In this document: positions 4,869 through 39,233 of the stretch, in pieces | How positions within the stretch are numbered: position 1 is the stretch's first letter | Layout of the letters: the number at the start of each line of letters is the position of its first letter | NCBI GenBank assembly: GCA_022710725.1 | Contig: JAKLGK010000006.1 | Span: 124,001-188,000 of the forward strand | Direction: 5' to 3' | DNA from: Verrucomicrobiota bacterium | GTDB taxonomy: Bacteria > Verrucomicrobiota > Kiritimatiellia > CAIQIC01 > JAGNIJ01 | DNA: 64,000 nt | Made by a program: the position numbers and the translations under genes | Notes under the pieces: generated by a model | What the model saw: the letters and a program-made list of their open reading frames with translations, nothing else | The model's database searches: none | Told to the model about the DNA's origin: nothing

Positions 4869-4976
4869 CACGAACCTCCTGTTTCCGTCTTTCCGCCTCC
4901 CGCCGGCACCCTTCATCGGTCGGGGTTGGTCAACCGGCGGGCGGTCTTGAGCGTATCAGTCGGCGCGGGGGCGGGA

Positions 4977-5027
4977 TTCTTCCCGGCTTGTTCTTTTTTC
5001 GGCCGAAACTCTCTTGGGCGGGAAGAA
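4977..5027. repeat. 9-bp inverted repeat in the leader of the response-regulator gene
   Basis: TTCTTCCCG at 4977-4985 is matched by its complement CGGGAAGAA at 5019-5027, with CGGCCG between the arms. It could be a structured leader or a binding site upstream of the gene at 5070. There is no other support. Confidence 0.3.
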
Positions 5028-5069
5028 AGGGCCCTTTGCGACGACTACACAGGCAGAGGAGCAAGAGTC

Positions 5070-5453
5070 ATGAATACCGACGGGCGGAGCGAAACGGCGG
5101 CGACGATACTGGTCATTGACGACAATTCCTGCATCCGGGACCTGCTGGCCCGGCTGCTGCGGCGCTACGGGCGGGTCGAGTGCGCGGCTACCGTGGACGA
5201 GGGGCTGCAACTGTTCCGCCGGCTCGGGCCCGGGCTGGTCATCACCGACTACGAGATGCCGGGGCGAAACGGGATCGACGGCATCCGCGCGATGAAGGCC
5301 CTCGCGCCGGGCGTTCATATCGTCATGCTCAGCGGCTCGGCCACGCGCGAATTGACCGACGAGGCCAAGCGGGAAGGCGCCTTCGAATGCCTGGGAAAGC
5401 CGTTCGAGCTGAATGTCCTCCGCGAACTCACCGCCCGCTGCCTGGCGGTCTGA
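5070..5453 (+). CDS. Single-domain response regulator (CheY-like receiver)
   Basis: The 127-residue receiver has the acidic pair D17-D18, the phosphoacceptor D60 (VITDYEMPGRNG), a switch Ser (MLSGSA) and the conserved Lys in LGKPFE. It has no output domain, so it would act through protein contacts or a phosphorelay. The start is the ATG at 5070 after AGAGGAG; the frame is open far upstream, but that part is not protein-like. No kinase is adjacent. The nearest kinases start at 8699 and 13028. Confidence 0.88.
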   Translation: MNTDGRSETAATILVIDDNSCIRDLLARLLRRYGRVECAATVDEGLQLFRRLGPGLVITDYEMPGRNGIDGIRAMKALAPGVHIVMLSGSATRELTDEAKREGAFECLGKPFELNVLRELTARCLAV

Positions 5454-5509
5454 CGCGCCGCCCGCGGGGTTGGACAACCGGCCGCCGATCTGCTAGGTGT
5501 TCCCCCGCC

Positions 5510-5695
5510 ATGAAATTCAAAGTGGATCATGACCTGTGCATCGGGTGCGGCGCATGCGAGCGGACCTGCCCGGCGGTCTTCGCCCTCGTGGACGACAAGT
5601 CCAACGTCCAGCTCGACCCCGTCCCGCCGGAGCACGAGGAGAAGGCCCTGCGCGCCGAGGACGGCTGCCCCGTCGGCGCCATCTCGCACGAGTAA
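5510..5695 (+). CDS. Small monocluster [4Fe-4S] ferredoxin
   Basis: The 61-residue protein has CIGCGACERTCP (Cys10, 13, 16, 20) and a second half with a lone Cys53 in DGCPVGAI. This is the pattern of a single-cluster ferredoxin in which Cys10, 13, 16 and 53 bind the cluster; Cys20 may pair in a disulfide or be free. The acidic middle segment is typical. It is a low-potential electron carrier whose partner is unknown. It lies between a receiver gene and an exported protein with no obvious operon partner. Confidence 0.9.
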   Translation: MKFKVDHDLCIGCGACERTCPAVFALVDDKSNVQLDPVPPEHEEKALRAEDGCPVGAISHE

Positions 5696-5710
5696 TCCGG
5701 CGCGGTCCGC

Positions 5711-7336
5711 ATGAGGAGGGGCCGGATCATCGCGGGAAGCGGGCTGGCCTGGCTAGCGCTGGCCTGGGCCGCGTGCGCATCTACGAACATCGCCTACATC
5801 GGCGGCGATCCGGACCTGTGGAATCTCGCGGAAATTCAGACCGCCCTCGCGGACCTGGCCCCGTCGCCCATCCCCGATCTCAACGCGTTCATCGCCGCGC
5901 TGCACGATTACGCGGACAGCGATAGGTTCGCGTACGGCGGCACCGACGCCGAGCGGCTGGATCGAATCAGCGCCGAGCCCGTCCCGATGATCAACGAGGT
6001 CATCGTCAGCAACACGTTCCGCCTGGTGCAGGCCGGGACCAACACGCTGCTTGAACATTTTCTCCACCTGACCGTGGAAACGTGGTTCCCGTTTCCCGCC
6101 GACCCGGCGAATCCAGAATTCCAGGTGGCCTATTCCGGGGCGCTGGTTTGCCAGGTCATGCCCATTGCCATTACGAATCCCCTGGCGCTTCAGTCCTCGC
6201 CGCCGGCGATCCAGCACGAGGGGCACGACTACAAGCTGTCCACTTTCACATTCAGCCATGCCACCCCCGTCAACGGCCCCGGGCAGCCTGTCTATCCACC
6301 GCCGGTCATCGGCGTTCGGGTGATACTGGAGGACTCCATCCAGGCGCAGTACCTCGGGACCGCCGTGGATCGCGTCTGGCGCGGTTGGCCCGCGACTTGT
6401 TTTCAGGTGATTGGACCGGCGCCTCTGCTGGTGGTCGGTGGGCCCTCCATGCCGTTTGGCCCGCCCGCCGGGTGTTCTGCCAACGATCCCAGGATCAACT
6501 GGAACCCGGCTTTAAGCGTTCACTGGTCATCGGCCGTGGCCACGCCCGGGCAGCCCAATGTCACGCTCTCCGGCCCCTCGAATTCCGTCGGCTTTATGTT
6601 TGCCGCCACAAACGGGATCATCTCCGTGGCCGAGTTGACCAACGTGCTCTACGACGCCGCGAAGCCCTGGACCACGGTGACGCTGGTCGATCCGGACCCG
6701 GACGAGACCTGGCGGATTCGGAACCAGCTGACCGTGAACGAGCGCTTCCCGCTGGTCGCCGATGCGGGCCCGCACGGGCAGGTCTCGCCGCTCCAGACCA
6801 ACGTCCTTTCCGGCGAGGACGCCGCCTTCCTGATCACGCCCGACCTGTACTATACCCTCGACTCGCTCTGGACCAACGGCGGGGCGGCGGGCGCCGACCT
6901 GGGCACCGGCGTGCACGAGTTCGTGTGGAGTAGCGTCCTTTTCACCGGAGCCTTCCACGCGGTCTTCGCCGAGGTGCGCGCCGCGAACTTCGGCACACCG
7001 TACCCGTGGCTGGCGGAACACGGCTTCACGACCGACATGGAGGCCGCGGAACTCCTGACCGGCTCCAACGGAATGCCGGTCTGGCAATCCTACGTGGCCG
7101 GGCTCGACCCTCACGACCCCGACGCGCAATTCGAGATCCGCTCTCTGGCGGGGGAGGGGCTTCTTTTCGATACGGCCACGGGCCGGCTGTACGCGGTGGA
7201 CGGCGAGTCGAACCTGGCGGAACAGGCCTGGGCGGCGAGCCTGACCAACGATATGCCCGGCACCGGCGGCCCGGTGCAGGTCCCCGTCGAGCCGTCGGCG
7301 GGCGGCGTCTACCGGCTCCGCGTCCGCGAGCCCTGA
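5711..7336 (+). CDS. Exported protein of unknown function with a Kiritimatiellota-style C-terminal module
   Basis: The 541-residue protein starts with MRRGRIIAGSG and a hydrophobic segment ending WAAC (a weak lipobox) or ACAST. The body is beta-rich with no recognised enzyme motif. Residues about 420-460 read GTPYPWLAEHGF, then MEAAELL, then GMPVWQSYVAGLDPHDP. This resembles the GTPxxWLxxxG...WQEYxAGTDP module I associate with many large secreted proteins of Kiritimatiellota and related bacteria, where it may be a sorting or anchoring region. That link comes from memory of sequence style rather than a search. Confidence 0.6.
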   Translation: MRRGRIIAGSGLAWLALAWAACASTNIAYIGGDPDLWNLAEIQTALADLAPSPIPDLNAFIAALHDYADSDRFAYGGTDAERLDRISAEPVPMINEVIVSNTFRLVQAGTNTLLEHFLHLTVETWFPFPADPANPEFQVAYSGALVCQVMPIAITNPLALQSSPPAIQHEGHDYKLSTFTFSHATPVNGPGQPVYPPPVIGVRVILEDSIQAQYLGTAVDRVWRGWPATCFQVIGPAPLLVVGGPSMPFGPPAGCSANDPRINWNPALSVHWSSAVATPGQPNVTLSGPSNSVGFMFAATNGIISVAELTNVLYDAAKPWTTVTLVDPDPDETWRIRNQLTVNERFPLVADAGPHGQVSPLQTNVLSGEDAAFLITPDLYYTLDSLWTNGGAAGADLGTGVHEFVWSSVLFTGAFHAVFAEVRAANFGTPYPWLAEHGFTTDMEAAELLTGSNGMPVWQSYVAGLDPHDPDAQFEIRSLAGEGLLFDTATGRLYAVDGESNLAEQAWAASLTNDMPGTGGPVQVPVEPSAGGVYRLRVREP

Positions 7337-7501
7337 TCCGGTCCCGATCACCTTTTCCATTGCTTGGGAATCCCGGGTGCGTCGTCTCGATGCGGCCGGG
7401 CGGAAATCGCTTGCGTCGGGAGGCACCCGCGACGAAACTATAACCAACGGAGGTTGTTACCGTTTGACGAGGCGCGGGATAACCGACGGGAGGGCCGGCG
7501 T

Positions 7502-8593
7502 ATGAAAGGAAGAGGTCTCCTGGTTGTCCTGCTGGCGGCGCTCCTGGGCGGGCCCGAAGCGCGCGCGCAGACGAACGAGCCGGCGGCGGGTCGGGCGCTC
7601 GTGGAGGCGACGCGGAAGGCGAAGGTCCGCCTGTGGGGGCAGGTGAACCGGGCGCTGCTGTACGCGGAGAACGGAAGCTTCTCGGAGTGGTTTCACGTGG
7701 ACAACGACAGCTCGCCGTCGCGCCTGGGCGCGGCGGGAGAGTACACGCCGGACGGCTGGCCGGACTGGACGTTCGGCGGGCAGGTCGAGCTGGGCTTCAA
7801 GTCGGACAATTCCGCGGCCGTGACGTTCGGCGGCGAGGATCCCGAGTTCGAGGTGGACGGCCGCAAGATCGAGGCGTACGCCCGGAGCCCCTCCGCCGGT
7901 TCCCTGGCGCTGGGGCAGGGCGACATGGCGTCGAACGGCTCGGCGGAGGAGGACTTGAGCGGCACCTACGTGATCAGCTACAGCCAGGTGCGGTTTGCCG
8001 CGGCGAGCCTGGTCTTCGGAACCAACGGGCCGGCGATCAAGGAGGTCTTCAACAACTTCGACGGGCTGCACCGCGATGACCGGCTCCGCTACGACACGCC
8101 CGCCTGGCACGGCTGGTCCGCGGCCGCCTCCGCCGCGGGCCAGGATTTCTACGACGCGGCCCTCCGCTTTGCCCGCGACCTCGGCCCATGCCAGGGCGCC
8201 GCGGCGCTCGCGGTCGCACACAAGGGCGCGGACGTGGACCAGTTCAGCGGATCCTGCTCCGTGTGGCTGGATGGCGGGCTGAACGTCACCGCCGCGGCCG
8301 GCGGGCAGGAGGTCGAGGGCGATTACTCCCCGTTCTCCTGGTACGGCAAGATCGGCTGGCGGCTGGACTGGCTGTCGTGCGGCGAGACCTGCCTGGCGGT
8401 GGACTATTCGCGCAACGAGGAAATCTCGCAGGCGGGGGACCGCGCCGAATCCCGCGCCGTGGTGCTGAACCAGCGACTGGAGCCGATCGCCTCGGACCTG
8501 TACGCGTCGGTGCGGACCTTCACGCTCGACCGGCCGGGCGAGGAGTACGAGGACGTGCTGACCGTCATGGCCGGCGTACGCCTGTGCTTCTGA
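7502..8593 (+). CDS. Outer-membrane porin-like beta-barrel protein
   Basis: The 363-residue protein has a clear signal peptide (MKGRGLLVVLLAALLGG, cleavage near ARAQ). The mature part starts with a strand like KVRLWGQVNRALLY and alternates polar and hydrophobic residues in strand-sized blocks. It ends VRLCF, with the terminal Phe typical of outer-membrane barrels. The sequence around WFHVDNDSSPSRLG matches the N-terminal style of general diffusion porins of Gram-negative bacteria. The start is the ATG at 7502 after GGGAGGGCC. It is followed by a kinase with periplasmic solute-binding domains, so it may serve uptake of the sensed compound; that is speculation. Confidence 0.72.
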   Translation: MKGRGLLVVLLAALLGGPEARAQTNEPAAGRALVEATRKAKVRLWGQVNRALLYAENGSFSEWFHVDNDSSPSRLGAAGEYTPDGWPDWTFGGQVELGFKSDNSAAVTFGGEDPEFEVDGRKIEAYARSPSAGSLALGQGDMASNGSAEEDLSGTYVISYSQVRFAAASLVFGTNGPAIKEVFNNFDGLHRDDRLRYDTPAWHGWSAAASAAGQDFYDAALRFARDLGPCQGAAALAVAHKGADVDQFSGSCSVWLDGGLNVTAAAGGQEVEGDYSPFSWYGKIGWRLDWLSCGETCLAVDYSRNEEISQAGDRAESRAVVLNQRLEPIASDLYASVRTFTLDRPGEEYEDVLTVMAGVRLCF

Positions 8594-32335: not shown

Positions 32336-32361
32336 ACCTTATGCGCATATGCGCATAAGGT
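32336..32361. promoter_or_regulatory. 26-bp perfect palindrome, arsR operator
   Basis: The half-site ACCTTATGCGCAT is followed by its exact complement. TTGACC (32333-32338) just overlaps its left end and could be a -35 box, so a bound repressor would block the promoter. The arsR start codon is 8 bases downstream. ArsR/SmtB repressors bind such AT-flanked inverted repeats. Confidence 0.75.
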
Positions 32362-32368
32362 AGGTGTC

Positions 32369-32686
32369 ATGAACTACCGGCAAGCCAAGACAAGAGCGGA
32401 AATCCTGAAGGCCATGGCGCATCCCGTGCGCGTGCTGATCGCGGACACGTTGACGCGGGGCGACCAGTGCGTCCGCGAACTGAACCGCCTGGCGCGGATC
32501 AACCAGTCCAATGTCTCCCGTCACCTGGCGGTGCTCAAGAAGGCCGGGATCATCTCCGACCGGCGCATCGGCATGAAGGTGCTCTACCACCTCGAAACGC
32601 CGTGCATTCTGAGGGCGTTCGACTGCGCCGCGGAGGTGGTCCAGGCGGATGCCCGGCGGCGGAGCCAGTACTTGAAAGCGGTGTGA
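32369..32686 (+). CDS. arsR: ArsR/SmtB-family arsenic-responsive repressor
   Basis: The 105-residue winged-helix protein has AMAHPVRVLIADTL, the recognition helix NQSNVSRHLAVLKKAGII and the wing RRIGMKVLYHLETPCIL. Cys residues occur in DQCVREL near helix 3, in TPCILRAFDC near the C-terminus, and nowhere in a classic ELCVCDL box. It may therefore sense As(III) with a different site (for example the C-terminal CxxxxxxC pair). It is the first gene of the arsenic run, with the palindrome directly upstream. The start at 32369 follows AAGGTAGG. Confidence 0.9.
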   Translation: MNYRQAKTRAEILKAMAHPVRVLIADTLTRGDQCVRELNRLARINQSNVSRHLAVLKKAGIISDRRIGMKVLYHLETPCILRAFDCAAEVVQADARRRSQYLKAV

Positions 32687-32687
32687 G

Positions 32688-34067
32688 GTGGGCCGGGAGC
32701 GGAAGATAGCCCTCGGGCTGGCGGCCGGCTTCCTCGCGGCGTACTTCCTGCCGGTCGAGGCCGCCCGGTTCCAGGGCGCCGTGACCGAATCGCTGCGGCT
32801 CGTGCGCTGGTACGCCCGGGAGCATGTCCTGCTATGCCTCGTGCCCGCCTTCTTCATCGCCGGCGCCATCGGCGTGTTTGTCCGGCAGGACGCCGTGATG
32901 AAATACTTCGGGCCGAAGGCGCACAAGGCGCTGGCCTACGGCGTGGCCTCGGTGTCCGGCACGATCCTCGCCGTATGCTCCTGCACCGTGCTTCCCCTCT
33001 TCGGCGGCATCTACCTGCGCGGCGCGGGACTCGGCCCGGCGATCGCGTTCCTCTACTCCGGCCCGGCGATCAACGTCCTGGCGATCGTGCTGACGGCCCG
33101 CGTGCTGGGCTGGCAACTCGGGCTGGCGCGGTCGGTCGGCGCCGTTTCGTTCAGCGTGGTTATCGGATTGCTGATGCATCTGATCTTTCTCAAGGAAGAG
33201 CGCGCCAAGGCCGCGCAGGTTCAGGACGTGTACATGGGCGATGACGACGGCAAGGACCATCCGCTCTGGCAGGTCGCGCTCTACTTCCTCTCGATGGTCG
33301 GCATCCTCGTCTTCGCGAACTGGGGCAAGCCGATGGAGCCGGCCGGCGTCTGGTTCGCGATCTACAAGACCAAGTGGATCGTCACGGCGCTCTTCGCCGT
33401 TCTGCTGGGTCTCTGCCTCTGGCGGTTCTTCAGGGTGCGGCTTGCCTATATCGCGCTGGCGGCCGTTCCGCCCCTCCTATTGGCAGGGGCCTTCCCCGGC
33501 CATCCCGTGGTCGCCTTCGCGGCGGGCTCGGCCGGATTGACCGTGCTGACGTTTGTCGGCGGAGCTGATCTCAAGGACTGGCGCGACCAGACGTGGGGCT
33601 TCGCGAAGCAGATTCTGCCCCTGCTGTTCATGGGTGTGCTGGCCGCGGGCTTCTTCCTCGGCAGTCCGGGATCCAAAGACGCGGGCATTGTGCCGAATGT
33701 CTGGATTCAAGCACTGGTTGGGGATTCGCCGTCATCCCTCCTTTCAATCTTTGGAAAACCAGAGGGCACGCACATCCAATGGTTGGAAACGATCTGGCCG
33801 CTCTGGACCAACCTCTTCGCCTCGATCACCGGCGCGCTGATGTACTTCGCCACGCTGACCGAGGTTCCGATCCTGCGCGGCCTGCTCGACAGCGGCATGG
33901 GGCAGGGGCCGGCCCTGGCGCTCCTGCTTGCCGGGCCAGCGCTTTCGCTGCCGAGTATGTTGGTGATCAACTCCATTCTCGGTCCACGGAAGACGTTGAC
34001 ATTCGTCGGCCTGGTGGTGGCCATGGCGACGATCACCGGGATGATTTTCGGCGGGCTTGTTACATAG
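32688..34067 (+). CDS. arsP: ArsP-type organoarsenical efflux permease with an in-frame repeat insertion
   Basis: The 459-residue DUF318 permease has ten or so membrane helices and the paired signatures CSCTVLPLFGGIY (Cys97, Cys99) with LYSGPAINVL, and later TLTEVPI with LAGPALSLPSMLVI. ArsP proteins export trivalent organoarsenicals such as MAs(III). The start is a GTG one base after the arsR stop. Residues about 352-367 (FGKPEGTHIQWLE and neighbours) are an extra segment just before the last conserved block WTNLFASITGALMYFATLTE. Its DNA matches the palindromic repeat seen at 56266-56314. The frame stays open, so the protein may still work. Confidence 0.88.
   Translation: MGRERKIALGLAAGFLAAYFLPVEAARFQGAVTESLRLVRWYAREHVLLCLVPAFFIAGAIGVFVRQDAVMKYFGPKAHKALAYGVASVSGTILAVCSCTVLPLFGGIYLRGAGLGPAIAFLYSGPAINVLAIVLTARVLGWQLGLARSVGAVSFSVVIGLLMHLIFLKEERAKAAQVQDVYMGDDDGKDHPLWQVALYFLSMVGILVFANWGKPMEPAGVWFAIYKTKWIVTALFAVLLGLCLWRFFRVRLAYIALAAVPPLLLAGAFPGHPVVAFAAGSAGLTVLTFVGGADLKDWRDQTWGFAKQILPLLFMGVLAAGFFLGSPGSKDAGIVPNVWIQALVGDSPSSLLSIFGKPEGTHIQWLETIWPLWTNLFASITGALMYFATLTEVPILRGLLDSGMGQGPALALLLAGPALSLPSMLVINSILGPRKTLTFVGLVVAMATITGMIFGGLVT
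33742..33789. repeat. Degenerate copy of the paired TTCCAAT-ATTGGAA repeat inside arsP
   Basis: CAATCTTTGGAAAACC (33745-33760) and CCAATGGTTGGAAA (33776-33789) align with the two palindromes of the intergenic element at 56266-56314. The two halves start exactly 32 bases apart in both copies. Confidence 0.65.
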
Positions 34068-34076
34068 GAGACCGGC

Positions 34077-34310
34077 ATGAAGAAGATTCAGATTCTCGGC
34101 ACGGGCTGTCCGAAGTGCAAACTGCTCGCGGCCAACGCGGCGGATGCCGTGAAGGCCCTGGCCATCGAAGCGCAGATCGAGAAGGTCGAAAAAATAGGGG
34201 AGATCATGAAGTTCGGCGTGATGACCACGCCGGCCCTTGTCGTGGATGGCGTGGTGAAAAGCGCCGGCAAGGTGTTGAGCGCGGACGATATCAAGAAGCA
34301 TTTGGCCTAG
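34077..34310 (+). CDS. Small thioredoxin-like redox protein (TM0996/ArsE type)
   Basis: The 77-residue protein MKKIQILGTGCPKCKLLAAN has the active-site pair Cys11-Cys14 and the cis-Pro loop MTTPALVVDG. This is the small glutaredoxin-like family found with ArsP permeases in many arsenic operons. In Shewanella the arsEFG genes act together, and this gene may play the ArsE part, but I am not certain of that equivalence. It lies 9 bases after arsP and is cytoplasmic. Confidence 0.88.
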   Translation: MKKIQILGTGCPKCKLLAANAADAVKALAIEAQIEKVEKIGEIMKFGVMTTPALVVDGVVKSAGKVLSADDIKKHLA

Positions 34311-34319
34311 GAGACGGTC

Positions 34320-34469
34320 ATGACCGAGAAACAAGCAGGCGCTTGTGGAGGAGCGCCCAAACTGATCTTCCCCTGTTCCGGAGGGGCGGATGTCGGCGCC
34401 TTGGCGGACCAGGCCGCCCGACGATTAACGAGGGATGGATTCGGCACGATGTACTGCCTGGCCGGCTGA
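34320..34469 (+). pseudogene. Truncated DGC-domain (putative zinc-binding) protein
   Basis: The 49-residue frame MTEKQAGACGGAPKLIFPCS, followed by GGADVGALADQAARRL and MYCLAG, matches the first third of the roughly 120-residue DGC family (PF08859), which is common in arsenic operons. The family continues with an IGGRVSG-like segment and the DGCPxDCA motif, but here TGA follows directly after CLAG. None of the three downstream frames shows the missing part. The metal-binding DGC motif is therefore absent. It keeps its spacing and GGAGACGGTC ribosome site. It is either a remnant or a minimal protein; a remnant is more likely. Confidence 0.7.
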
Positions 34470-34481
34470 TGTGGTCGCCCC

Positions 34482-34628
34482 ATGGTAAAGGTTTATACGA
34501 CACCGCCGCCGGCCTGTTCGTGCCGGGGTGAAGAGGGCAATGACCTTGTACCGTTGCTGGTGGTCGCAGTTCTCTTGATCGGCGCGCGACTTGTGAATGG
34601 ATGGCTGAAGAAGAAAGGAAGGCGTCAC
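34482..34628 (+). other. Short open segment in frame with the downstream thioredoxin; possible N-terminal extension
   Basis: An ATG at 34482 opens 49 codons (MVKVYTTPPPACSCRGEEG, then a membrane-like helix LVPLLVVAVLLIGARL and KKKGRR). These run without a stop into the thioredoxin gene at 34629. No ribosome site precedes the ATG, while AGGAAGG precedes the GTG at 34629, so separate translation of the thioredoxin is favoured. The VKVYTTP opening resembles a glutaredoxin start, so this may be another operon remnant. Confidence 0.4.
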
Positions 34629-35072
34629 GTGAAAAATTTGAAGCAGGTGGTGATCGTGGGCGCCCTGGTTGCTGCCGTGGGCGGAGTATTCGCCCTGAAA
34701 CAGCGGCAGTCGAGACCTGTCGTTGCGTCCGCCGAGGTGGAGGCGTCGGCTGCCGCGGCCAGCGAAAGGCCCGCGCCGCTCCCTCGCCTCGTCGATCTCG
34801 GCGCGGATAAGTGCGTTCCCTGCAAGGCGATGGCGCCTATCCTGGAGGAGCTGAAAAAGACCTATGCCGGTCAGTTACAGGTGGACTTTATTGATGTTTG
34901 GAAAAATCCCGGGGCGGGCGACCAGTACGGTCTGCGTGTAATTCCAACGCAGATTTTCTTCTCCGCCGACGGCAAGGAGTTGTTCCGGCATGAAGGCTTC
35001 TTCTCGCGGGAGGATATTCTCGCGAAGTGGGCGGAATTCGGGGTCGCGTTCAGCGACACGGGGGCGCCGTAA
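34629..35072 (+). CDS. Membrane-anchored periplasmic thioredoxin
   Basis: The 147-residue protein starts at GTG 34629 (AGGAAGG upstream), with one N-terminal helix (VVIVGALVAAVGGVFAL), an Ala/Ser-rich linker and a thioredoxin domain with active site CVPC (Cys62-Cys65) and the cis-Pro loop RVIPTQIFF. The domain should face the periplasm. Its stop overlaps the ATG of the CcdA-like ArsG gene by one base (TAATG), so the two probably form an electron relay, as CcdA-like proteins hand electrons to such thioredoxins. Confidence 0.85.
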   Translation: MKNLKQVVIVGALVAAVGGVFALKQRQSRPVVASAEVEASAAAASERPAPLPRLVDLGADKCVPCKAMAPILEELKKTYAGQLQVDFIDVWKNPGAGDQYGLRVIPTQIFFSADGKELFRHEGFFSREDILAKWAEFGVAFSDTGAP

Positions 35073-35779
35073 TGGGGTGGATACAGGCATTCTTCTCCTC
35101 GCTTTCGCACGCCATTGAAGGCAACCCGGCCGTGGCCGTTGCAGCGGCGCTGGCCTGGGGCATCTTGAGCATCCTCTTGAGCCCCTGCCACCTGGCCAGC
35201 ATCCCGCTGATCATCGGGTTCATTGACGAGCAGGGCTCCATCAGCACCAGGCGGGCGTTCTGGATCGCCCTGTTGTTCTCGGCCGGCATCCTGGTCACCA
35301 TCGCGCTGATCGGCGTGGCGACGGCGCTGGCGGGACGGATGCTGGGGGACGTGGGCGAGTACGGCAACTACGTGGTCGCCGTGATCTTCTTTATCGTCGG
35401 TCTGCACCTGCTGGATGTCATCCCCCTGAACTTCGGCGGACCGGGCCGGGTGAACATGAAGCGCAGAGGCCTGCTGGCGTCGTTCATCCTGGGCCTGGTC
35501 TTCGGCGTGGCGCTCGGGCCGTGCACCTTCGCCTTCATGGCCCCCATGCTGGCCATCACCTTCAAGCTCTCGGCCGCGAACGGGCTGTACGGCGCCTTTC
35601 TGCTGGTGATGTATGGCGTCGGGCATTGCGGCGTGATCGTGGCGGCCGGGACGTCGTACGAATGGATCGAGCACTATCTGAAGTGGAGCGAGGCCTCGAG
35701 GGGCGCGCTGCGGATCAAGAAGGCCTGCGGCGTGCTGGTGCTTCTCGGCGGTCTTTGGCTTCTGTACACCGCACCCTAG
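35072..35779 (+). CDS. arsG: CcdA/DsbD-like ArsG-family permease
   Basis: The 235-residue protein has six membrane helices. The first holds LSPCHLASIPLIIGF and the fourth LGPCTFAFMAPML, the paired Cys-Pro helices of CcdA/DsbD-type thiol carriers. This sequence type, next to an ArsF-like protein, is annotated as the aromatic aminobenzylarsenical efflux permease ArsG. Whether it moves electrons, arsenicals or both cannot be told from sequence. It follows the periplasmic thioredoxin by overlap and precedes arsF by 9 bases. Confidence 0.85.
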   Translation: MGWIQAFFSSLSHAIEGNPAVAVAAALAWGILSILLSPCHLASIPLIIGFIDEQGSISTRRAFWIALLFSAGILVTIALIGVATALAGRMLGDVGEYGNYVVAVIFFIVGLHLLDVIPLNFGGPGRVNMKRRGLLASFILGLVFGVALGPCTFAFMAPMLAITFKLSAANGLYGAFLLVMYGVGHCGVIVAAGTSYEWIEHYLKWSEASRGALRIKKACGVLVLLGGLWLLYTAP

Positions 35780-35788
35780 GAGAAGGAC

Positions 35789-36229
35789 ATGAACTCACTG
35801 CGATCGTTCCGAACCGTGTTGTGCGCGGGCCTGATGGGCGTGGTTCTGGCCTCGTTCTCTGAAGCCGCCGAGGCCCCGGCGAAAAAGCCGCTGGAAAAGA
35901 CGGTGTTCTATTTCCACCGGACGGCCCGCTGCCCGACGTGCCTGAAACTGGAGTCCTGGACCCGCGAAGCGGTGCAGGCCCGGTCTACCGGGGAGCAATC
36001 GAAGACTCTCGTCTTCAAACCGGTAAACCTCGATGCGCCTGAAAACAAGCACTTCGAAGAGGATTTTCAGTTGACGTTCAGCACCGCGGTCGCGGCGGAA
36101 ATGCAGGAAGACGGCCGGGCGGCCCGGTGGAAAAACCTCGACCGCATCTGGGAATATTCCGCGGACGAGGCGGCCTTCAGGAAGTATGTGGACGGCGAAC
36201 TCGGCGCGTTTTTCAACGCCAAGCCATGA
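35789..36229 (+). CDS. arsF: ArsF-family protein (nitrophenyl-arsenical reductase subunit)
   Basis: The 146-residue protein has a signal peptide (RSFRTVLCAGLMGVVLASFS) and a thioredoxin-like fold with the pair CPTC (Cys48-Cys51), then DEAAFRKYVDGELGAF. It matches the family annotated as nitrophenyl compound nitroreductase subunit ArsF, described with ArsE and ArsG in Shewanella putrefaciens. It lacks any visible FMN motif, so a thiol-redox role in the periplasm is what the sequence itself supports. Its stop overlaps arsC (ATGA). Confidence 0.82.
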   Translation: MNSLRSFRTVLCAGLMGVVLASFSEAAEAPAKKPLEKTVFYFHRTARCPTCLKLESWTREAVQARSTGEQSKTLVFKPVNLDAPENKHFEEDFQLTFSTAVAAEMQEDGRAARWKNLDRIWEYSADEAAFRKYVDGELGAFFNAKP

Positions 36230-36653
36230 ACAGGCTGAAGATACTCTTTCTGTGCACCGGCAACTCCTGTCGGAGCCAGATGGCCGAGGGCTGGGCGCGC
36301 CATCTGAAGGGCGACGTGATCGAAGCGTACTCCGCGGGGATCGAGACCCATGGACTGAATCCCCTGGCCGTGAAGGTCATGGCCGAGGCGGGGGTGGACA
36401 TTTCCAAACAGCGGTCCAAGCGCGTGGCCGAGTTGAAGGGCATCGAGTTCGATCATGTCGTGACGGTCTGCGATCACGCGCACGAATCCTGCCCGCTCTT
36501 TCCCGGCCGGACGAAGGTCACGCACCGCGGATTCGACGATCCTCCGCGCCTGGCGAAGGACGTCCGGACGGACGAGGAGGCCCTGAGGCCTTACCGGCGG
36601 GTGCGGGATGAGATCAGGGCCTTTGTGGAAATGCTGCCGGAGGCGTTAAAGAC

Positions 36654-36657
<4 letters not shown>
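36226..36657 (+). CDS. arsC: Arsenate reductase, thioredoxin-coupled (low-molecular-weight phosphatase type)
   Basis: The 143-residue enzyme reduces As(V) to As(III). The P-loop [10 protein letters not shown] supplies nucleophile Cys10 (and Cys15). The relay pair is Cys82 and Cys89 in [10 protein letters not shown], the hallmark of thioredoxin-dependent ArsC, as in Staphylococcus aureus and Bacillus. The start ATG overlaps the arsF stop, and the stop overlaps the acr3 start. The small thioredoxins upstream could recycle it. Confidence 0.94.
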
Positions 36658-37868
<1,211 letters not shown>

Positions 37869-37891: not shown

Positions 37892-37918
37892 ATGATACCT
37901 AGAGGGTCTAGGCATCAT
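37892..37918. promoter_or_regulatory. Palindromic operator upstream of padR (copy 1)
   Basis: ATGATACCTAGA, spacer GGG, then TCTAGGCATCAT: a 12+3+12 inverted repeat with one mismatch. It differs by one base from the copy at 38299-38325. It ends 12 bases before the padR start codon. Confidence 0.75.
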
Positions 37919-37930
37919 GGAGGAGTGATC

Positions 37931-38302
37931 ATGGACTATGTCAATCGCGGGTACTGGAACGCGGTGATGAGTGCGAGCCTTTGCAAGTTCCTCATTCTGC
38001 GGGTGATCAGTGAAAGGCCGCGGCACGGATATGGAATCGTCTGGCGGGTGGCCGAGTTGACGAAACACTTGTGCGCGCCGACGCAAGGGGCCGTTTATCC
38101 CGCGCTCCGCGACTTCGAGAAGGCGGGCTGCGTGGCCAGCCGGATCGAGCGGCGGGGGCGGAGGGAGCGAAAGGTGTACCGGCTCACCGCCCGGGGCCGG
38201 GAAGCCCTCCAGGCGGCCGCGGAGGTCTGGCATCACGGCCTGCAGCGCCTGCGGACGATAGTGCGTCCCGCCGTCACCTCCCGGATGAAAGTCGGCCCAT
38301 GA
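37931..38302 (+). CDS. PadR-family transcriptional regulator of the arsenic island
   Basis: The 123-residue protein has the PadR winged helix: FLILRVISERPRHGYGIVWR, APTQGAVYPALRDFEKAG, then the wing RRGRRERKVYRLTARGREAL. It has a short C-terminal helix, as in subgroup-2 PadR proteins. Three cysteines, Cys18, Cys48 and Cys67, lie in the DNA-binding domain and could bind As(III). It sits between acr3 and arsM with nearly identical palindromes on both sides, the second overlapping its own stop codon. This suggests that it represses itself and arsM. The start at 37931 has GGAGTGATC before it. Confidence 0.85.
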   Translation: MDYVNRGYWNAVMSASLCKFLILRVISERPRHGYGIVWRVAELTKHLCAPTQGAVYPALRDFEKAGCVASRIERRGRRERKVYRLTARGREALQAAAEVWHHGLQRLRTIVRPAVTSRMKVGP

Positions 38303-38328
38303 TACCTAGAGGGTCTAGGTATCATGGG
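38296..38328. promoter_or_regulatory. Palindromic operator between padR and arsM (copy 2)
   Basis: A perfect 15+3+15 inverted repeat: CCCATGATACCTAGA, spacer GGG, then its exact complement. It overlaps the padR stop codon (38300-38302) and lies 77 bases before the arsM start. The 27-base core matches copy 1 with one change. Confidence 0.8.
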
Positions 38329-38405
38329 CGGGCGCGACACGATGACGCGGCGCGAGGGGGCGAGGGGAAGGCGGAGCGATCGTTGCCATGTTACGGGAGA
38401 TCATC

Positions 38406-39233
38406 ATGAAAAAGGATGTTCATGAATCGGTCCGCCAGGGTTATGCGGCCATCGCCGCGGGCGGCGGATCGTGCTGCGGGCCGGCGAAGAGCTGCGGCGG
38501 GGGCGGGGCCGCCGACGTGGCCCGAACCGTGGGCTATTCCGACGCGGAACTGGCGACGCTGCCGGACGGCGCGAACATGGGGCTTTCGTGCGGGAACCCG
38601 GCGGCGCTGGCGGGATTGAAGCCGGGCGAGGCGGTCCTGGACCTCGGCGCCGGCGGCGGGTTTGACGTCTTTCTCGTCGCGCAAAAGGTGGGCCCGGCCG
38701 GGCGAGCGATCGGCGTGGACATGACGCCGGAAATGGTCGGCAAGGCGCGGCGGAATACGATTGTCTTCCGGGAAAAAACCGGCCTGGACAACGTGGAGTT
38801 CCGCCTGGGCGAGATCGAGCATCTTCCCGTGGCGGACGCGAGCGTGGATGTGGTGATCTCCAACTGCGTGGTCAACCTTTCGCCCGACAAGCCGCAGGTC
38901 TGGCGCGAGGCCTGCCGCGTGCTGAAGCCCGGCGGCCGCGTCGCGGTTTCCGACCTGGCCTTGCTCCAACCCCTGCCGGACGCGGTGCGGGAATCCGTAG
39001 AGGCCCTGGTCGGTTGCGTGGCCGGGGCGGTTCTGATCCGCGACACGGAGGCGATGATGAGGCAGGCGGGCTTTGCGGACATCGTCCTGGAATCGAAGCC
39101 GGACTACATCGACGCGATGAGCCGGTGGAGCGATCCGCTCTACCGTGCCATCATCGAGAGGCTGCCGCCGGGCGCCCGCCTGGCGGACTTCGTAACCAGC
39201 TTGTCTATTTCCGCCCGGAAGCCCCGCCCGTAG
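38406..39233 (+). CDS. arsM: Arsenite S-adenosylmethionine methyltransferase
   Basis: The 275-residue enzyme methylates As(III). The SAM site is VLDLGAGGGFDVFLVA, followed by GVDMTPEMV. The arsenic-binding cysteines fit ArsM: Cys62 (LSCGNP), Cys154 (ISNCVVNLSPDK) and Cys204 (VGCVAGA). A Cys-rich N-terminus adds Cys23, Cys24 and Cys30. The start is the ATG at 38406, with GGGAGA upstream. The second PadR palindrome lies between padR and this gene. Its product MAs(III) is what ArsP exports, so the two ends of the island are functionally linked. The last 29 bases overlap the convergent nuclease gene. Confidence 0.94.
   Translation: MKKDVHESVRQGYAAIAAGGGSCCGPAKSCGGGGAADVARTVGYSDAELATLPDGANMGLSCGNPAALAGLKPGEAVLDLGAGGGFDVFLVAQKVGPAGRAIGVDMTPEMVGKARRNTIVFREKTGLDNVEFRLGEIEHLPVADASVDVVISNCVVNLSPDKPQVWREACRVLKPGGRVAVSDLALLQPLPDAVRESVEALVGCVAGAVLIRDTEAMMRQAGFADIVLESKPDYIDAMSRWSDPLYRAIIERLPPGARLADFVTSLSISARKPRP

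Follow-up and report, generated by a model that had tools for sequence, protein, structure and literature searches.

Paired palindromes around a cysteine-bearing PadR gene: a possible second switch in a bacterial arsenic island

Bacterial arsenic genes are usually taken to be under the control of ArsR-family proteins. A nickel-responsive member of the PadR family, YqjI of Escherichia coli, represses itself and a neighbouring target, a ferric reductase gene. LmrR of Lactococcus lactis, which belongs to PadR subfamily 2, binds its own promoter and that of its target lmrCD and senses drugs and riboflavin (PMC4534193). A PadR binding motif of the form ATGT-N8-10-ACAT has also been reported (PMC3506622). 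Because LmrR binds both its own and its target promoter, the double-operator plan is already known for the PadR family. No PadR that regulates arsenic genes was found in the open-access papers that were searched, most subscription papers lying outside the scope of the search. Thus, metal-responsive PadRs are already known, whereas a PadR clade that carries Cys48 and is linked to arsenic genes, as outlined below, is undescribed.

What might a PadR regulate and sense within an arsenic island? The 64,000-nucleotide stretch of DNA that was analysed here (the window) encodes a PadR that resembles LmrR as a small, presumably repressing PadR-type protein with sites before its own gene and a putative target and with a probable detoxification role. 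The two systems differ in that LmrR responds to drugs or riboflavin and is associated with the ATGT-N8-10-ACAT motif, whereas the window carries GATACCTAG-N5-CTAGGTATC and the putative target encodes an arsenic methyltransferase. YqjI, which we liken to the window PadR by description only, is of the same family but responds to nickel, its target being a ferric reductase gene. The thiol-based control that ArsR/SmtB proteins exert on ars genes is the mode that we propose for the window PadR, although the latter is a PadR by profile (PF03551 and not PF01022) and the respective operators are unrelated palindromes. Closely similar systems reside on plasmids of Cupriavidus and Roseomonas, whose PadRs bear no database name beyond 'PadR family transcriptional regulator'. 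They belong to the same clade as the window PadR and share Cys48, similar operator arms or layout and arsenic-type neighbours, but differ in a CC pair at positions 47-48, the absence of Cys18 and Cys67, and other target genes.

The arsenic island and the palindromes at padR

The genes and predicted operators of the island are listed in Table 1 together with related sites elsewhere. The longest open reading frame of arsM begins at 38388, and the ATG at 38406, which is preceded by GGGAG, is the most likely start. The ArsM translation contains three conserved cysteine residues, in LSCGN, SNCVVN and VGCVAGA, whose role we presume from established knowledge of ArsM. The gap at about 34070-34480, which separates the ArsP_1 permease gene from that of the membrane thioredoxin, appears to contain a small thioredoxin-like reading frame.

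Table 1. Features of the arsenic island in the window and related sites in other records
Feature	Position	Strand	Remarks
arsR operator candidate	32336..32361	.	perfect 26-base palindrome ACCTTATGCGCATATGCGCATAAGGT
arsR, ArsR/SmtB-family regulator	32369..32686	+	PF01022; NF033788 above cut-off
ArsP_1-family permease	32688..34067	+	PF03773, 238.7 bits
thioredoxin-fold protein and DsbD transmembrane protein	34482..35779	+	island members
arsC-type gene, low-molecular-weight phosphatase fold; candidate arsenate reductase	36220..36657	+	PF01451
acr3, ACR3-family arsenite efflux transporter	36654..37868	+	TIGR00832, 372.9 bits, cut-off 282.8; upstream of operator 1
operator 1 (predicted)	37892..37918	.	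one mispaired position; arms recur ahead of other PadR genes
padR	37931..38302	+	123 aa, PadR-family winged-helix; Cys18, Cys48, Cys67; PF03551
operator 2 (predicted)	38299..38325	.	perfect palindrome overlapping padR stop codon
arsM, arsenite methyltransferase	38406..39233	+	NF008823, 316.9 bits, cut-off 263
Roseomonas mucosa pTT14-4 operon padR, ArsO-like, ArsK-like	4956-8123 (L113)		adjoins chrA; same PadR clade
pbpC copy	G000:C8:34570-34588 (L041 10569-10591)		inside coding sequence
btuF copy	G000:C7:186869-186887 (L043 8368-8390)		inside BtuF-like gene; CTAG one side, CTTG other
intergenic copy	G000:C14:67423-67441 (L042 8422-8444)		short gap between convergent genes; same GGG centre

The PadR protein exceeds the curated cut-off for the PadR winged-helix domain (PF03551, 74.2 bits against 27) and matches 36 distinct PDB sequences at E<=0.01, most of which are PadR-type. 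The ArsR domain (HTH_5, PF01022) has no match in this protein, and the ArsR of the island is encoded by a separate gene. A low-confidence structural model (mean pLDDT 57.7) predicts a helix at residues 87-116, a candidate for the C-terminal dimerisation helix of the family; this single-sequence model is too poor for distances between the cysteine residues, whose positions (18, 48 and 67) in the initial annotation agree with the translation.

That annotation had also described a pair of palindromes with a GGG centre and a single-base difference, one before padR and the other across its stop codon and ahead of arsM, and the pair is indeed found in this arrangement. Site 1 (ATGATACCTAGAGGGTCTAGGCATCAT) is a 27-base palindrome that is imperfect by one pair and is located 23 bases past the acr3 stop codon and 12 bases ahead of the padR start codon. 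Site 2 (ATGATACCTAGAGGGTCTAGGTATCAT), also of 27 bases, is perfect around GGG, and its perfect arms reach 16 bases and span 38295-38329. The TGA of padR (38300-38302) is embedded in site 2, the end of which is separated from the likely arsM start by 80 bases. Shuffling the window 100 times gives an expectation of 0 palindrome matches with up to 3 mismatches. A search around site 1 and site 2 detected no sigma-70-type promoter.

The candidate operator of arsR overlaps a promoter-like pair, TTGACC-17-TAAGGT, just ahead of the arsR start and is unrelated in sequence to the padR palindromes. Within the window, the padR-type palindrome is found only at padR and before arsM. Given these two distinct palindromes and their distribution, control of padR and arsM apart from the ArsR unit, as had been suggested, is plausible, and the island likely contains two separate switches.

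The same palindrome type at other PadR genes

Similar palindromes recur at PadR genes of distant bacteria. The common arms GATACCTWG-N5-CWAGGTATC directly precede PadR genes of Nocardia, of a Cupriavidus plasmid and of several related bacteria. The exact form GATACCTAG-N5-CTAGGTATC occurs in 18 stretches in a search of 84,980 species genomes, mostly in three Lentisphaerae or Verrucomicrobia MAGs, and one of these stretches is positioned directly ahead of a PadR start in Nocardia colli. Among named organisms, the nearest relative of the window PadR (47% identical) is encoded on plasmid pRK1-4 of Cupriavidus basilensis, which carries TGATACCTTG-ATGGA-CAAGGTATAT before this PadR gene. The closest relative overall, a PadR from a genome of the same taxonomic class (G298, 50% identical), has two copies of a CTTG form upstream. 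At one mismatch or fewer, this CTTG variant occurs at six sites in 288 genomes of the class, four of which lie upstream of PadR genes (two in G298 and one each in G062 and G187); the remaining two fall inside pbpC (G338) and btuF (the window's genome). A second PadR of the window's own genome is preceded by TACCTTACTATACAAGGTA, approximately 42 bases before its matched part, and genome G012 displays the palindrome on both sides of a PadR gene, as in the window. Chance cannot credibly account for such recurrent placement at PadR genes, for which PadR binding sites are the best interpretation. It is thus very probable that the palindromes at padR are operators, as the initial annotation had assumed.

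The site type is a general PadR operator and not an arsenic signature, judging from these comparisons, because the G012 PadR has neither a cysteine residue in its DNA-binding domain nor arsenic neighbours and nonetheless carries the palindrome on both sides. The Nocardia PadR with this operator type is likewise devoid of cysteines and ars neighbours. The operator form of the window PadR, ATAC-N13-GTAT, is unlike the reported ATGT-N8-10-ACAT motif, and the latter does not characterise the family in general, since many of the compared PadRs have CCTWG-N5-CWAGG sites. The PadR protein used alone as a query retrieved nothing from the 84,980-genome collection, and no relative was found in E. coli genomes. 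Only remote PadRs were detected in phages, and viral contigs contain one remote PadR and one palindrome, which lies inside a phage gene and is unrelated.

The arrangement of operator, padR, operator and target also recurs. In Roseomonas mucosa plasmids, the PadR gene, whose product is 40% identical to the window PadR, is followed by genes for a flavoprotein (ArsO-like) and an MFS transporter (ArsK-like), which match the curated models below cut-off. The gap from padR to the flavoprotein gene contains a candidate second site that resembles operator 1 (19/27, p<0.001). In Cupriavidus, where the target would be an ArsP_1 permease, the site between padR and the target is weaker (17/28, p~0.015), and no second site was seen in G116, in which padR is also adjacent to an ArsP_1 gene. 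It is similarity to operator 1, and not palindromy, that marks the putative second sites in Roseomonas and Cupriavidus; palindromy by itself is weak (p 0.13 to 0.7) for the Roseomonas sites, G116 and the second Cupriavidus site. The earlier suggestion that PadR controls both itself and arsM gains from the layout in Roseomonas and, to a lesser degree, in Cupriavidus, and control of arsM by PadR is probable.

Cys48 and its clade

Cys48 distinguishes a small group among 77 distinct PadR-type proteins collected from all fetched loci, a set that comes mainly from one phylum and plasmid records, such that the clade may be larger. It is found in the window PadR, G298, G116, Cupriavidus and Roseomonas (5/77), and these proteins group in a single clade (93/74 support; recovered in 92% of bootstrap trees). 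Four of the five are encoded beside arsenic-type genes: arsM in the window, ArsP_1 in Cupriavidus and G116, and the ArsO-like and ArsK-like genes in Roseomonas. On the short (10-kb) contig of the fifth, G298, ars genes are absent. Based on the alignment and the low-confidence model, position 48 is located immediately ahead of the recognition helix. Other PadRs have a hydrophobic residue there (Leu in 39 of the 77), and the cysteine may accordingly be structural. Three clade members contain a CC pair at positions 47-48, of which the window PadR retains the second cysteine only.

The remaining two cysteines are less widespread. Cys18 is confined to the window PadR and G298, and Cys67 occurs in these two and in one unrelated PadR; both are absent from the other three clade members. 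Hence, by sequence, the three-cysteine set, which G298 keeps in full, is restricted to one branch and only Cys48 is clade-wide, and the three-cysteine sensor of the initial annotation does not hold for the clade. The Cys48 clade, with arsenic-type genes beside four of its five members, favours the broader proposal of that annotation, an arsenic-sensing PadR, which is tempered by an operator type that is not specific to arsenic. Taken together, the neighbourhood and Cys48 make arsenic sensing a plausible and reasonable reading, and the odds that an arsenical is the ligand of PadR are roughly even. Slightly short of even is the broader proposal that these PadRs constitute a distinct clade that has come to sense trivalent, perhaps methylated, arsenic through a thiol and that would operate via Cys48, at the start of the recognition helix, and paired operators at arsM, ArsP-type or ArsO/ArsK-type genes in unrelated phyla, in parallel to ArsR.

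Proposed mechanism, alternatives and further copies

We propose that a PadR dimer acts as a repressor that binds the two copies of GATACCTAG-N5-CTAGGTATC. Binding to site 1, just ahead of the padR start, would mediate autorepression, and binding to site 2, between padR and arsM, would repress arsM. A trivalent arsenical, either As(III) or the ArsM product MAs(III), would bind the Cys48 thiol at the entrance of the recognition helix, perhaps joined by Cys18 and Cys67 in the window's branch, and the arsenical-bound PadR would leave the DNA, allowing the induction of padR and arsM. The acr3 operon would stay under ArsR and ArsR's own, different palindrome. The sequences directly show the two sites and their genes, the recurrence of the operator type at other PadRs and the Cys48 clade with its arsenic-type neighbours. 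That PadR binds the sites, that it represses and does not activate, that its ligand is an arsenical and that the cysteines act as proposed is what we infer. To the model as a whole, in which PadR represses padR and arsM via both sites and an arsenical releases it, we assign a probability of about 0.5. Counting against the model are the negative promoter search at both sites, the clade members that lack Cys18 and Cys67, the G298 contig devoid of ars genes, the G116 locus with no second site seen, the palindrome copies away from ars and padR promoters, and a possible structural role of Cys48. If the model is true, the PadR clade would represent a second arsenic switch of independent origin. Should MAs(III) be the inducer, the methylation branch would have its own control, with possible parts for biosensors. 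The consensus GATACCTWG-N5-CWAGGTATC further provides a practical handle for finding PadR target genes in these bacteria.

The palindromes might instead be operators for padR and arsM whose PadR senses a drug-like compound, another metal, or oxidative or electrophile stress, the arsenic link being one of association. This alternative is less probable than the arsenical model but deserves serious weight, given that the operator type is common to PadRs that lack both cysteines and ars genes (G012 and Nocardia), that G298 has all three cysteines beside no ars gene on its contig, and that the Roseomonas operon is also close to chrA. Moreover, the ArsP_1-family proteins match the Cu/Zn SO_0444 and SaoE models below cut-off and so need not move arsenic. 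Against it stand the arsenic-type genes next to four of the five clade members, the location of the window padR between acr3 and arsM, and the restriction of Cys48 to the arsenic-linked clade. Site 2 could also function not as a DNA operator but as an RNA hairpin of 16 base pairs that includes the padR stop codon and separates or attenuates arsM expression. Its predicted fold is very stable (-34.4 kcal/mol, z -7.9), but every perfect palindrome folds as RNA, and site 1, despite its near-identical sequence, folds unremarkably (z -0.84) and sits where an operator is expected. Site 2 has no T-tract and no intrinsic terminator call, and no known RNA family in Rfam was matched; a hairpin role is highly improbable.

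Dispersed copies of the palindrome raise another alternative, namely that REP-like repeats or relics of mobile units flank padR by accident and serve no operator role. The 3.9-Mb genome that contains the window has five copies within one mismatch, two of them at padR, and all five have the GGG centre in the same sense. In G012 (LaPlata-15m-a_bin-260; loci L185-L192), about 20 copies of GATACCTAG-N5-CTAGGTATC are dispersed (24 places within 2 mismatches), often paired 110-390 bases apart, several between convergent genes and mostly far from start codons, and one pair (L191) flanks the PadR gene. A CTCG variant, TACCTCGGTATCCGAGGTA, similarly flanks a PadR gene in G359 (G359:C235:44759 and 45326; L180 2258 and 2825). 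However, single or double copies are placed directly ahead of PadR starts in Nocardia, G062, G187, G298 and Cupriavidus, in genomes without many dispersed copies. Unlike in REP/RAYT systems, which also share the feature of dispersed copies, the flanked gene encodes a PadR by Pfam and not a transposase of the REP-associated tyrosine type. The pbpC copy, moreover, is not an insertion: the pbpC ortholog of G338 has the same length and bears a symmetric CTTG/CAAG variant, which differs by two compensating changes, at the same codons, ruling out a mobile insertion there. We consider an accidental repeat unlikely and retain the reading of the palindromes as predicted PadR operators.

The three extra copies in the window's genome are not at ars or padR promoters and are not explained by a promoter-only model. 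They may be binding sites without a promoter role or spread operator copies. The symmetric change in the pbpC copy is only suggestive, and the conservation of this copy between the two species is unremarkable (2 mismatches in 22; 5-18% of nearby windows match equally well). In the G338 ortholog of the BtuF-like gene, only the right half of the palindrome is present. The CTCG variant is dispersed in both G359 and G115, and the G359 gene represents a third PadR that is bracketed by its genome's own repeated palindrome.
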